64,000 bases of DNA. Source: Prochlorococcus marinus str. MIT 9313. GTDB lineage: Bacteria; Cyanobacteriota; Cyanobacteriia; PCC-6307; Cyanobiaceae. Made by a program: the position numbers and the translations under genes. This document shows positions 50,725 to 55,740 of this stretch, in pieces. The stretch spans positions 747,347 through 811,346 of the forward strand of contig NC_005071.1 in assembly GCF_000011485.1 (NCBI RefSeq), in the 5' to 3' direction. Every line of letters begins with the position of its first letter. The first letter of the stretch is position 1. The notes below the pieces were generated by a model. The model searched no databases. It had not been told where the DNA came from and worked only from the letters and a program-made list of their open reading frames with translations.

Positions 50725-51440
50725 ATGATGAATGCCAAACTCAAACGTCGAAATAAGCAGATCGAAGAACATCTGCAACTCGTTAGGCCAATAGCACTCC
50801 ACTACGCTTTTCGTACTGGACAGGACAAAGAGGACCTCACTCAGGTCGGAATGCTAGGCCTTATCCGAGCAGCACATTCTTTCAAACCAGTAAATCAGTA
50901 CCATTTTCCGCCTTTGCAAAACCGCATATACGTGGTGCCATCCTTCACTACCTCAGGGATAGTGTAGGACCAGTTAAATTACCTAGACGAGTTGAGGAGC
51001 GAGCTCAGGCACTTCTCAGAGATTCAACCTTGATCGACAGAGCCAGTTTTTTTGAAAAGCTCAGTGCAGTCGATAGAACACTCATAGAGAGCTACAAGCA
51101 GAAAGGACGCTGGTACCCTCTCGATCATCAATTCCTAACAGCTGATAAAGATCAGTGGAGTGAACTGGTCAACAGGGAACGTAAACGAATGCTTATGAAT
51201 GCTCTAGAGAAGCTCGATTGCCAAGAGTCTGCGGTGGTTGATCACGTAGTACTAAGAGGAGAAAGCCTTCGCAGTACAGCCAGTTACCTGGGGATCAGCT
51301 GCATGACCGTACAAAGACGTGTGAAGCGAGCGCTTCGGCGACTGGCTGTTGATTGCTCTGAGTTGTCTCCTGACGCTGATTCCCCTCTCAGGAAGCAGGA
51401 TGTTGATCCCTCTGGATCTGTTGCTCCAAGGTCTCTATAG
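50725..51440 (+). pseudogene. Alternative sigma-70-family factor, split by a -1 frameshift
   Basis: A group 3-like sigma factor of about 239 residues when joined. Frame one (50725-50967) gives region 2: EEHLQLVRPIALHYAFRTGQ, DLTQVGMLGLIRAAHSFKPVN. Its continuation lies in the -1 frame from about 50895: SVPFSAFAKPHIRGAILHYLRDSV followed by GPVKLPRRVEERAQALL, and it reaches region 4 near residues 185-230 (LEKLDCQESAVVDHVVLRGE, then SLRSTASYLGISCMTVQRRV). One base added near AAA at 50892-50894 would restore the reading frame. As given, frame one ends in out-of-frame residues and stops at 50965-50967. It may be a broken gene or a sequencing error; a programmed shift is possible but unsupported. 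Confidence 0.85.
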
Positions 51441-51573
51441 CTGCTTTCACTGCAGACAGGCGACGCTCTAGACCATCACGCAGGAAAAGAAGCATTTCAA
51501 GCTTCCTGTTCTGATAGTGACGACGACGGTCTGCCGAGTCAACATTTGAGCTGAGGCAAAAGGGAGAGAACAT
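51388..51573 (-). CDS. Small hypothetical protein with a helical, coiled-coil-like core
   Basis: A 61-residue frame starting ATG 51573. After a short variable head comes RRRHYQNRKLEMLLFLRDGL, then ERRLSAVKAAIETLEQQIQR, with the even charge pattern of a single amphipathic or coiled-coil helix. Similar small helical proteins are frequent in marine picocyanobacteria. Its 3' end overlaps that of the sigma factor (convergent, 53 bp). Function unknown, and coding status is moderately certain. Confidence 0.55.
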   Translation of the reverse strand: MFSPFCLSSNVDSADRRRHYQNRKLEMLLFLRDGLERRLSAVKAAIETLEQQIQRDQHPAS

Positions 51574-51723
51574 GCCGTTCCTACAGTTGGGTGAATCTTC
51601 GCGAAATTCTGCTAAGAGTGCGAAATTTCTTTCTTTGCGGTGTTGGCTGGTGTGACTAGGTTTGAATTGACGAGTTGCTCTAGGCTCTCGCCGCTCAACG
51701 TAACAAATCCATCCGGCTTAAAG

Positions 51724-53385
51724 GTGTCACAGAAGATCTCATTACTAGTCTCATTAAGTCTCTCGACTCTTGCCTGTGAGAGTGGTTTCGCAAAACCATC
51801 ATGGTCATACGTGCCCTTAATGGCTGGACAGTCAGCACGTCCACTCAATGGAAGCTTTAATAAAGTTCCCGTTCTCCACTCCAACCAGCCGGAGACAGTT
51901 GTTGGTTCAGGAATACTTGTTAATACAGCTCCGGGCTCAGCAGTAGTCGTCCGTACAGGGCAACAATTAAGAAATGCAGAATTTACCTTTGACGGCAAGT
52001 TCGGGATTCACATTCATCATAAGTATTATCCTCGCGACAGACGTAAACTTGGCAACAGCCGAAAACGTGGATTGCTTACTGTTGCAGCAATAGCAAACAA
52101 TCCAACAGATTCATCAATTGAACTTAAATTTGATCGAGGTTCAGTTAAAAATAGTTTTGAGGCTCCTTATCATTCGAATAAACTTATGGGTGTGAAGCCC
52201 CTGGGACCTCGTCCCTGGAATACAGGTCCGGGGGATGCAACAGCTGTACAGATGCTGCGAGGTAAATTGGACAGAAAGTTAGCAGATAATATTGTCATTC
52301 CACCTCATACTAAAAAAATTGTATTCACAACACAAATACCTGCAAGAGGGATTGCCAACGGACTGCTTAGTGGAACTAGCAACGGACCTTTTCAATTAGC
52401 TGTGGTTGCAGCAGAAGGGGCCACATCAGAAAAGAATCTGATCGCTATTCTTAATTCAAGGCGATTGGCGCCTGGACGTACTTATCTCAGTAGAATCGGT
52501 GAAATTGAAACGGGCAAGGTTTTTTCGCGTGTAGCAGGAGTAGCAATTGGTGATCACTATACCGCTAAACTAAATCATGACCTTAAACATGGTGCTCTTC
52601 ATGTACCTCTTACCAGTACTCGTAAACATCATTTTGGCACAAGAGAGATCCAGGTCAACCGACTGGAAACTCGCATGATTGATTCTGCCGTCAATAATGT
52701 AGGGACTTACGGGGTACGTTTTGATATCACCCTTAATCTAAAAGGCTCAGGCACTCATCAATTAGTTCTAAGCCACCCTGCAGCAACAGAAAAAAAGAAA
52801 CCATTCACGGCATTTCGTGGTTCAATCGGAATCAAGACTGAGAATAAATACAAAGAAGTTCATGTAGGACTACGCTCAGGACAAAGTCTTCCTATATCTG
52901 ACCTAGAGTTGACAGAAAAAAAGGATAATCCTGTTACTATTAGTTTAGTCTATCCTGCAGACAATACACCGGGGCATCTGCTAAGTGTTGTTCCAGTTGA
53001 ACAGTATACTCAGGCTATGCAGAAAGAAGGAAAGGCAAAGAAAGTAAAGCTGCCTGTGACAGCAAGTAATAATTATAATGCCCAACCATTAGCTCCAAAG
53101 CGTATAGCGAAAACAAAGGTTGTTGAGATGAACAGGAATTCGATGAAACAAAGACATCAAGACAATTACAAATTGAGCACAAACAAAAAGCAACTATTAA
53201 CGAATGAATCCATTGGTCACAATTCTCCGGTCAACATGCCACCAATACTCATTTCCAATCCTAGTACAAATAATACTATGCCATCAGCAATTATCAATCC
53301 GCAAAGAGTCAATTCGAGCCTTAGAAAACACTACAACGAAGCCATAAAGGCACAACAGCAATGGTTGCATCAACTGCAAAACTAA
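51724..53385 (+). CDS. DUF3370 family exported protein with a long C-terminal extension
   Basis: About 553 residues. The frame opens at 51640, but GTG 51724 starts a good signal peptide (SQKISLLVSLSLSTLACESGFA). The DUF3370 region follows: YVPLMAGQSARPLNGSFNKV, VVGSGILVNTAPGS, FDGKFGIHIHHKYYP, PYHSNKLMGVKPLGPRPWN, then beta-rich repeats to about residue 425. The last 120 or so residues are rich in Asn, Lys, Gln and Ser (TASNNYNAQPLAPKRIA, NNTMPSAIINPQRVN) and look disordered. Function unknown; a periplasmic or surface location is likely. The CDS is followed by a 28-bp gap to the RHH-J gene. Confidence 0.83.
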   Translation: MSQKISLLVSLSLSTLACESGFAKPSWSYVPLMAGQSARPLNGSFNKVPVLHSNQPETVVGSGILVNTAPGSAVVVRTGQQLRNAEFTFDGKFGIHIHHKYYPRDRRKLGNSRKRGLLTVAAIANNPTDSSIELKFDRGSVKNSFEAPYHSNKLMGVKPLGPRPWNTGPGDATAVQMLRGKLDRKLADNIVIPPHTKKIVFTTQIPARGIANGLLSGTSNGPFQLAVVAAEGATSEKNLIAILNSRRLAPGRTYLSRIGEIETGKVFSRVAGVAIGDHYTAKLNHDLKHGALHVPLTSTRKHHFGTREIQVNRLETRMIDSAVNNVGTYGVRFDITLNLKGSGTHQLVLSHPAATEKKKPFTAFRGSIGIKTENKYKEVHVGLRSGQSLPISDLELTEKKDNPVTISLVYPADNTPGHLLSVVPVEQYTQAMQKEGKAKKVKLPVTASNNYNAQPLAPKRIAKTKVVEMNRNSMKQRHQDNYKLSTNKKQLLTNESIGHNSPVNMPPILISNPSTNNTMPSAIINPQRVNSSLRKHYNEAIKAQQQWLHQLQN

Positions 53386-53413: not shown

Positions 53414-54481
53414 GTGAAAGCGTCCGAAGACAATTCGAGGCGACGGATTACCGTTGAACTACCAAATCATCTAATCGCAAGACTTGATGAACTTAAAAGG
53501 GAATGGGGGTTAAGAGCTAGAGGGGATCTATTAGTACGTTTACTTGAAGAACTTTTTACCCCTCAAGAGAATGATCAAGATGATCAAAAGTTTGGAGAAC
53601 TATATCAAATAAATGAGCAAGCTCCACTCGAAAATGATGATAATGGGTCATTGTCTAGATCTTTACCTAGCGAATACGATGAGACAAAAGCACTGGTTTT
53701 AATAGGGCGGGGGGCGAATGATAGAGGTAGACCTGGCGTTAAGCCAGAGGGAAACAAAGTAGAAAGTAGTTATGAAGTTAAGACAACACATCCAGTTGGG
53801 ATTGATTTACCAGGCTTTGTGCGTAAACAAACGGATAATCTTAGAGAAAGTCTTGGCAAAAACAAATCAGGTGAGAATTCGAGGGACTTGCCCTTAGTTA
53901 CAACAGTTGCTGATACTGATGTGATTGAAAGTCTTAATGCCGCAAATCGACACTGGATATCACTTTATGGAAATCCCCCAGGGGAGACAGTTGTTGAAGC
54001 TGCAATGATCTGGTTAGCAAGGGACATATGGCTTCATGTCGATGGCACTGATGGAAGGCCGTTCACATGGAGTGCAGCAAATCGTCTGATGACAGAACTC
54101 TGTTCAAGTTGGCAGGTTAAACCGGCGACCTTTGAGCTTGTGATGGTGGTTGCTGGGATTTTGGAGGATCCGTTTGCCTGCAAAAGCCTTTCAGAGAGAA
54201 TGCCCACACTAATCCGCAGATTTGTCAATCGCTTTAAACGAAGTCGTCAGGTCACCTCGTTCCAAACACTTGAATCAACAATGACACTTCATGGAGCACT
54301 CAAACTACTCAAGCTGCCATCGCATGCTGGTGCACCAATGACACTTTCTACCATTCGAGAGGCCTACAAATTTCAGGCGATAACCATCCATCCGGACGCT
54401 GGAGGTTCAACAGAGGCAATGAGAAGGCTAAATGAAGCATATCAATTGCTTAAAGAGCTCTACCGTGAGAAACCCAATTAG
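53414..54481 (+). CDS. Ribbon-helix-helix plus C-terminal J-domain fusion protein
   Basis: A 355-residue soluble protein. Residues 9-48 (RRRITVELPNHLIARLDELK, REWGLRARGDLLVRLLEELF) form a beta-helix-helix pattern like CopG/Arc DNA-binding domains. A low-complexity acidic linker (about 50-145) and a folded helical middle region (about 180-285; ANRHWISLYGNPPGETVVEA) follow. The C-terminus (about 296-350; LKLLKLPSHAGAPMTLSTIRE, AYKFQAITIHPDAGGSTEAM) is a J-domain with HPD at 326-328. The HPD implies DnaK binding, and the RHH implies a DNA target. This order, DNA-binding head with J-domain tail, is unusual. The start is GTG 53414; function unknown. Confidence 0.82.
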   Translation: MKASEDNSRRRITVELPNHLIARLDELKREWGLRARGDLLVRLLEELFTPQENDQDDQKFGELYQINEQAPLENDDNGSLSRSLPSEYDETKALVLIGRGANDRGRPGVKPEGNKVESSYEVKTTHPVGIDLPGFVRKQTDNLRESLGKNKSGENSRDLPLVTTVADTDVIESLNAANRHWISLYGNPPGETVVEAAMIWLARDIWLHVDGTDGRPFTWSAANRLMTELCSSWQVKPATFELVMVVAGILEDPFACKSLSERMPTLIRRFVNRFKRSRQVTSFQTLESTMTLHGALKLLKLPSHAGAPMTLSTIREAYKFQAITIHPDAGGSTEAMRRLNEAYQLLKELYREKPN

Positions 54482-54510
54482 TCTCAAAAGTCTGCTCTAT
54501 GACTCAGTAT

Positions 54511-54529
54511 TAGTCTAATAGCGAGACTA
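54511..54529. repeat. Inverted repeat TAGTCT-N7-AGACTA
   Basis: TAGTCT (54511-54516) and AGACTA (54524-54529) flank AATAGCG. A matching element AAGACT-N7-AGTCTT with loop ATAAGCG lies at 55201-55219, and a weaker GACT-N7-AGTC near 55125-55140; 54691-54708 carries a related, non-palindromic form ending GCGAGACTA. Confidence 0.45.
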
Positions 54530-54937
54530 TGTATATATATAGTAGATAGACGTGGAGAATCTTTTGTGGTTAAGCCAACATCAAACAACGAAAACAAAAA
54601 TTGGGCTGAACAATCTCTATAGGGAAAAGTTCCATCTGCCAATGAGCTGCGGTAAAGCCATAAGCAAGCAACTCTCATATGTTTATTTAAAGACTTACGG
54701 CGAGACTACTAATAAGACTCATACAAGATAAAGTAGAGAAGGGATGGGTTATTGCTGTTGTTATCAGTGAAAAAAAATAATATTCTCAGATTCAATATTC
54801 GCTAATAACTCGAAGGGTGCGACGAGTTTATTGGAAAAACCCGGTTTACTTGTGCTCAAGGTGACCTTGTTCATCGGTCCACGCAGCGTCCAAGGACAGT
54901 ACTACTCTTCAGAAAAGCTTGCTATCAAAGACTTTGT

Positions 54938-54976
54938 AAGCCTGCGTAACTGCATTTTACACAGGTACGCAGGCTT
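54938..54976. repeat. 11-bp perfect inverted repeat with 17-nt loop
   Basis: AAGCCTGCGTA (54938-54948) pairs perfectly with TACGCAGGCTT (54966-54976). Inside, GTAA and TTAC can extend pairing around a CTGCAT loop. No long T-run follows (TCCTGT). It may be a transcript 3' structure or part of a small RNA. Confidence 0.55.
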
Positions 54977-55066
54977 TCCTGTATTGCACTCCTGCCCATT
55001 GGGGTATGTGTAGTGGGGCGGAGTGGGGAAGGAGGCTAACCATTCAACGGTCGCGCAATAGCGCGC

Positions 55067-55083
55067 GGGGGGGGGGGGGGGGG
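55067..55083. repeat. Homopolymer run of 17 G
   Basis: Seventeen consecutive G follow GCGCGC (55061-55066). This is far outside the local base composition and the longest homopolymer in the window. It could be a slippage-prone regulatory tract or an assembly artefact. Confidence 0.8.
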
Positions 55084-55200
55084 TACGACACTACGCCTCT
55101 TTCTGTTCACATTGGGCTTATAATGAGACTAAGAAAGAGTCGCAGAATATACACCTAAGACACTGCGAATGGATCATCTTTCGTTTTGTGGACTTATTGT

Positions 55201-55219
55201 AAGACTATAAGCGAGTCTT
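55201..55219. repeat. Inverted repeat AAGACT-N7-AGTCTT
   Basis: Perfect 6-bp arms with loop ATAAGCG, the best match to the element at 54511-54529 (same arm length and 7-nt loop ending GCG). Both lie outside genes on either side of the long spacer. Confidence 0.45.
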
Positions 55220-55740
55220 ATCTAAGACTTTAGAGTCCATGTTCGTAGTGTAAATTGTCAGATCGATGCAGCGCGTCATCAGGCTTGCTTGCCCTATTGA
55301 GTGGGATGCCAGGCCCGATCCACAATGTTTTGCCCCAATTATCCAGCAAGTAGCGATATGCTCAAAAAGCAAAATCTCAACTGAAATCGTGAACAATGCT
55401 TGTGAAATCCATTATTTCAATGCCGTAGTCCTGGCTAAACAAAACTCTTCGTTGTGAAGTGTCAGTTTTTTGCAATTGATTATCAAAAATAAGACTTGAG
55501 GGTCTTCTCCTGAATATTCCACCTTCGTTTCGGTTGAATTTATTGATTGGTGTTCAGACTCATAATCATGGAGCTCACTCTAAGCAATCTATAATGAATT
55601 TACATCCGAGCACTTGAAAGGCTCCTGGATCTGTCTAGGATTATATTTAACAAACCCAGCACCACATATTTGGATACTTATGATTTATTTATAGACAGCA
55701 TTTACTTTATTGTTATGCCTAATAAATAGGAAGACTTGCT

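Follow-up and report, generated by a model that had tools for sequence, protein, structure and literature searches.

Could a protein of marine picocyanobacteria place the DnaK chaperone machine on DNA? The question is raised by a gene in a window of 64,000 nucleotides from Prochlorococcus marinus MIT 9313 (NC_005071.1, positions 747,347 to 811,346; the genome is a single contig of 2,410,873 bases). From the letters of the window, an initial annotation had read its product as a ribbon-helix-helix (RHH) head fused, through an acidic linker and a helical domain, to a C-terminal J-domain, and had suggested that it brings DnaK to a DNA-bound complex. On re-reading the sequence, we found the plus-strand frame with its GTG start and the position of the HPD motif to be correct (Table 1). 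The literature searched contained no description of this protein, here called RHH–J, and no report combining DnaJ, CopG and Prochlorococcus; stress papers on WH7803 mention seven DnaJ proteins, in a passage where RHH–J is not described.

Table 1. Coordinates of RHH–J, its parts and its neighbors in the window
Feature	Residues	Position	Strand	Remarks
Whole RHH–J gene		53414..54481	+	355 aa, GTG start; RHH, linker, middle domain, J-domain
RHH head	9–48	53438..53557	+	Strand R11-I-S/T13-V-D/E15-L; helices 18–31 and 36–48; invariant R34, R36, G37
Acidic disordered linker	51–128	53564..53797	+	pLDDT under 50; dN/dS 0.94
Linker motif 1, Y-D-E-x-x-A-L-V-L-I-G	88–98	53675..53707	+	Conserved
Motif 2, G-I-D-L-P-G-F-V-R-x-x-T-x-x-L-R-x-S-L	129–147	53798..53854	+	I130, L132, P133, F135 invariant
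Five-helix middle domain	165–281	53906..54256	+	Closes with strongly basic helix; no Pfam or convincing PDB match
C-terminal J-domain	289–352 of 355	54278..54469	+	Pfam, AlphaFold2, structural match
HPD motif	326–328	54389..54397	+	Invariant, 39/39 homologues; between helices II and III
DUF3370 gene		51640..53385	+	Ends 28 bases 5' of RHH–J; absent beside RHH–J in most Prochlorococcus
SigF-like sigma factor, frameshifted		50725..51440 (fragments 50725–50967, 51030–51440)	+	Intact in MIT 0701 (222 aa)
Downstream spacer		54482–55740		1.26 kb; 15-nt inverted repeat (54938–54976) and long G run (about 55068–55084)

RHH–J is an orthologous family with conserved domains

Conservation and the Pfam scans of the family were assessed on 39 aligned homologues, and AlphaFold2 was run on their alignment. 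Scanned alone, the protein encoded in the window fell short of the Pfam cut-offs for DnaJ (E = 4.6e-5) as well as for RHH_1 (E = 0.1). Across the family, DnaJ matched all 39 members (best 1e-7) and RHH_1 matched 32 of them (best 4.4e-7), while no other domain was found in more than two. Compared with the nearest named relative, Prochlorococcus MIT 0701 (86–87% identity), dN/dS was 0.027 in the RHH head, the lowest value in the protein, 0.038 in the middle domain and 0.092 in the J-domain; the linker evolves near-neutrally, with purifying selection absent. RHH–J is an orthologous family in which all three domains are under purifying selection. The proposed architecture would be contradicted by a structural model in which either fold is missing, or by homologues that have lost HPD, and neither was encountered; the domain reading is stronger than was claimed at the outset.

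The J-domain is complete, as had been proposed. AlphaFold2 places its helices at residues 311–325 and 333–351 with a pLDDT of 85–96, and the modelled fold superimposes with VIA-align on the solved J-domains of 2guz_B (Z 10.1, 64 residues, 1.8 Å) and 1faf (Z 7.9). H326, P327, D328, R315, Y318, A322, G330, G331, M336, R337, N340, Y343 and L346 are invariant in all homologues, and only K or R occurs at position 319. In a gapless alignment to E. coli DnaJ, the HPD motif, R315, Y318, K319 and A322 correspond to H33-P34-D35, R22, Y25, K26 and A29; R22 and K26 of DnaJ contact DnaK in the DnaK–DnaJ complex. The accompanying remark that J-domains are usually N-terminal is right for DnaJ itself, but C-terminal J-domains are also found in other cyanobacterial proteins. 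The J-domain is likewise C-terminal in auxilin and Tim14. Two such cyanobacterial proteins, at L119 7063–8349 (428 aa) and L123 6878–8395 (505 aa), carry C-terminal J-domains with HPD on unrelated long N-terminal regions.

The RHH head carries a partial DNA-binding signature

The claim of a CopG/Arc-type N-terminus was borne out by the RHH_1 matches and by the AlphaFold2 model, in which both helices appear with a pLDDT of about 87; the model is a monomer, and the paired strand, which requires a dimer, is absent from it. The signature R34-x-R36-G37 was retained in 39 of 39 homologues, as was HPD. This R-x-R-G site, where the second helix begins, is where RHH proteins touch the DNA backbone. Along the strand, residues alternate, and the outward positions are occupied at 11 by R, K or Q (mostly R) and at 13 mostly by S or T. 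The third outward residue (position 15), with which RHH proteins often contact DNA, is acidic (D or E) in 29 of the 39, and the head as a whole is near neutral (mean net charge +1.3 across the family). The residue pattern fits DNA binding only partly: the low net charge and the acidic residue at the third strand position count against it. Alignments of the upstream region in three Prochlorococcus groups, judged by eye, contained conserved blocks and no clear operator-like palindrome.

RHH–J can also be compared with the CopG, Arc and NikR regulators. The strand-helix-helix head, the outward R and S residues of the strand and the arginine-rich turn ahead of the second helix are shared, whereas the acidic third strand residue, and fusion to a J-domain in place of a ligand- or toxin-binding part, set RHH–J apart. 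Profile matches between its head and NikR or CopG chains were weak.

A neutral linker with two conserved motifs leads to a middle domain without known relatives

The linker is as acidic as had been supposed, with a family mean net charge of −10. Its two motifs stand out from it, with mean entropies of 1.73 and 1.25 bits vs 3.1–3.4 bits in the rest of the linker. Taken with the dN/dS pattern, this conservation indicates that selection keeps the folded parts (RHH, middle and J), and that the linker is a spacer carrying two docking-like motifs.

The helical domain predicted between the linker and the J-domain proved to consist, in the AlphaFold2 model, of five helices with a pLDDT of about 93–98. 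Although conserved, this domain has no known relative: Pfam gave no match, the best VIA-align Z among the candidates of Foldseek was 2.8, Foldseek probabilities reached at most about 0.07, and no PDB profile match was better than 0.27, a lack of matches that is not proof of a new fold. Its closing helix (residues 259–281) is strongly basic, with a mean net charge of +6.8 in the family, and its binding partner could be nucleic acid or the acidic linker.

RHH–J is a core gene of one family

How widely is this protein distributed? At E ≤ 0.001, matches were found in 348 of 400 genomes of the picocyanobacterial family and in 234 of its 251 good genomes, or about 232 (about 92%) when two genomes are discounted in which the J-domain or a head fragment alone was matched. 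Nearly all members of both groups, Prochlorococcus and the small marine and freshwater Synechococcus, are carriers. Strong selection keeps the protein in almost every member of a family responsible for much of marine photosynthesis, including those with genomes under 2 Mb.

No full-length relative was detected outside the family in the phylum sample, where a profile search matched families elsewhere in the class and phylum by the J-domain only; the best of these matches, a 428-aa protein of G817, aligns only in the J region and a short stretch before it. Beyond the cyanobacteria, the same fusion was sought by a close-relative scan of GTDB contigs. A phage or mobile origin was considered and rejected, as 50,697 phage records and viral contigs yielded only J-domain matches and nothing full-length. 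Mobility is also disfavored by the synteny, which is fixed across the family. In a PheT tree with outgroups, two genomes without the gene (G012 and G067) form the earliest sampled branch and gene-bearing lineages come next; therefore, the gene seems to have arisen within the family after that branch had separated.

Within the family, the gene was lost at least three times. The complete genome of G234, a Prochlorococcus of the high-light type, retains no more than a frameshifted remnant, covering residues 1–122, between the Ap4A phosphorylase gene and pheT; in G044, the gene is missing from the same interval; and in G281, the flanking genes have moved apart and no copy is present. Because of these losses, RHH–J can be regarded as core yet not strictly essential, despite its near-universal presence. 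The decaying pseudogene of G234 (L143 8126–8479) is readable in three frames.

RHH–J among known J-proteins

By its architecture, RHH–J is a class C (type III) J-protein. With Tim14/Pam18, auxilin and the polyomavirus T antigens it shares an HPD-bearing J-domain, the absence of a G/F or zinc-finger region and a J-domain placed as the host protein needs, and the closest solved J folds belong to this class (2guz, Tim14–Tim16; 1faf, polyomavirus T antigen). It differs from them in its RHH head, in its middle domain and in its restriction to picocyanobacteria; to our knowledge, no other class C member has an RHH-type head. On the other hand, class A and B proteins (DnaJ, CbpA) are defined by an N-terminal J-domain, which RHH–J does not have, and the C-terminal or zinc-finger domains of DnaJ were not among the Pfam matches of the 39 family members.

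The nearest functional parallel is CbpA of E. coli and H. pylori, which, as predicted for RHH–J, combines a J-domain and DNA binding in one polypeptide. In H. pylori, CbpA binds DNA in dimeric form, stimulates DnaK and interacts with the HspR repressor (PMC7074700). The two differ in build, the J-domain of CbpA being N-terminal and followed by DnaJ-like C-terminal domains, whereas RHH–J would bind DNA through its RHH head.

A proposed DNA-tethered J-protein and its alternatives

What, then, might RHH–J do? From its sequence, it is a fair inference that the protein brings DnaK to a DNA-bound complex, and we lean, if only slightly, towards a dimeric J-protein tethered to DNA that recruits DnaK to a client there. 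By pairing as a dimer, the RHH heads would keep the protein on DNA; the conserved middle domain, perhaps with the two linker motifs, would hold a specific client; and the J-domain, reaching across the long flexible acidic linker, would recruit a DnaK and trigger its ATPase, such that the client, either a DNA-bound protein or one brought to DNA, would be remodelled or released. The middle domain is probably the part that holds the client. The analysis establishes the domain order, the conservation of the catalytic and DnaK-contact residues of the J-domain and of the RHH signature, the pattern of selection, the predicted J fold and the confinement of the protein to a single family. In favor of this reading count the family-wide Pfam matches, the conserved residues, the selection and the J fold, as do the gene's core status in the family and its persistence in streamlined genomes, and CbpA of H. 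pylori provides a precedent for one J-protein that both binds DNA and stimulates DnaK (PMC7074700). Against it count the acidic position 15, the low charge of the head, the lack of a palindrome and the sub-cut-off Pfam scores of the window protein. RHH–J is a candidate for a direct connection between DnaK and DNA in picocyanobacteria, and one that can be put to the test. A bolder version, which we hold only tentatively and with more doubt than belief, is that the family invented a transcriptional regulator that carries its own J-domain and positions DnaK at promoters, whereby the protein-folding state directly controls expression or a DNA-bound complex is cleared. If true, this would take place in the most abundant of photosynthetic cells, some of whose lineages have few other regulators.

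The acid at the third strand position and the nearly neutral head would suit a J-protein serving a specific client that has no connection with DNA, with the RHH head as a mere dimerization or protein-docking module and the middle domain as the client binder. The good conservation of the middle domain and J-domain agrees with this, as does the resemblance of motif 2 and the basic helix to docking sites, but the conserved R11, S/T13 and R34-x-R36-G37 and the dN/dS of the head, the lowest in the protein, do not, and we consider it unlikely. The two short hydrophobic motifs, strongly conserved in an otherwise neutral disordered linker, could instead be targets of DnaK in cis. RHH–J would then be a transcriptional regulator whose J-domain aims DnaK at its own ALVLIG and IDLPGFV segments, and free DnaK, hence folding stress, would set the operator occupancy of the RHH dimer. 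Several streamlined Prochlorococcus with the RHH–J gene (G007, G014 and G021) yielded no HrcA, which is the usual heat-shock repressor, and this suits such a regulator; however, HrcA coexists with RHH–J in MIT 9313, in its close relative G003 and in most other family genomes searched, no operator was found upstream, and there is no tie to heat-shock genes, so that we rate this account as distinctly improbable. As HrcA is absent only in some streamlined Prochlorococcus, RHH–J was also rejected as its replacement. Finally, RHH–J might be an abundant, CbpA-like J-protein of the nucleoid, one that binds DNA with low specificity and protects the nucleoid during stress or in stationary phase. Such DNA-binding J-proteins are known from E. 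coli and H. pylori (PMC7074700), and the strongly basic helix 259–281 could add non-specific binding, but RHH–J has no sequence relation to CbpA beyond the J-domain and shares neither its N-terminal J-domain nor its DnaJ-type C-terminal region, which makes this account very improbable.

The neighborhood of the gene

The gene order shared by Synechococcus, Cyanobium-like genomes and MIT9313/0701 runs SpoIID-like, Ap4A phosphorylase, SigF-like sigma factor, DUF3370, RHH–J, an apcD-type phycobilisome gene (missing in MIT9313/0701), a RumA/TrmA-type methyltransferase, pheT and rpsR; the names apcD, RumA, pheT and rpsR are those that we take these neighbors to bear. In most Prochlorococcus sampled, the sigma factor and the DUF3370 gene are gone from here, and RHH–J follows the Ap4A phosphorylase gene. 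Where both are present, DUF3370 and RHH–J are probably cotranscribed, given the 28-base gap in this strain, and in Synechococcus and this strain the DUF3370 gene is probably the operon partner of RHH–J.

Could the sigma factor be a partner as well? In the window it is indeed broken, as first noted, through the lack, near 50876, of a single base that the intact gene of MIT 0701 has. The SigF-like gene is present in Synechococcus and lost from this place in most Prochlorococcus, and it was rejected as a partner, as most sampled Prochlorococcus lineages, having lost the sigma factor and DUF3370 genes here, still keep RHH–J. Because RHH–J outlives it, the two are neighbors and do not form a system.

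The long, repeat-rich spacers that had been described around the gene were not confirmed in the spacer tested, that downstream, which has one direct and two inverted short repeats. In Synechococcus, its position is occupied by the apcD-type gene, of which no remnant was detected in the spacer. Rfam gave no structured RNA close to the RHH–J gene.

Two small frames were also observed in the region. A 61-aa ORF on the minus strand (51388–51573), between the sigma factor and DUF3370, has the motif R.HHQ.RKLEML.FWRDGLERQLAA..AAI.TLE.QI.RD and is conserved in most loci, including those of Prochlorococcus without its neighbors; it is probably a real small protein gene. Furthermore, a short, acidic and conserved protein (MDWEFTEDAAFIALCDAFRESGESSAIE..., about 76 aa) is encoded on the 5' side of the block in almost every locus (L080 15848–16078, with a matching minus-strand ORF in other loci).
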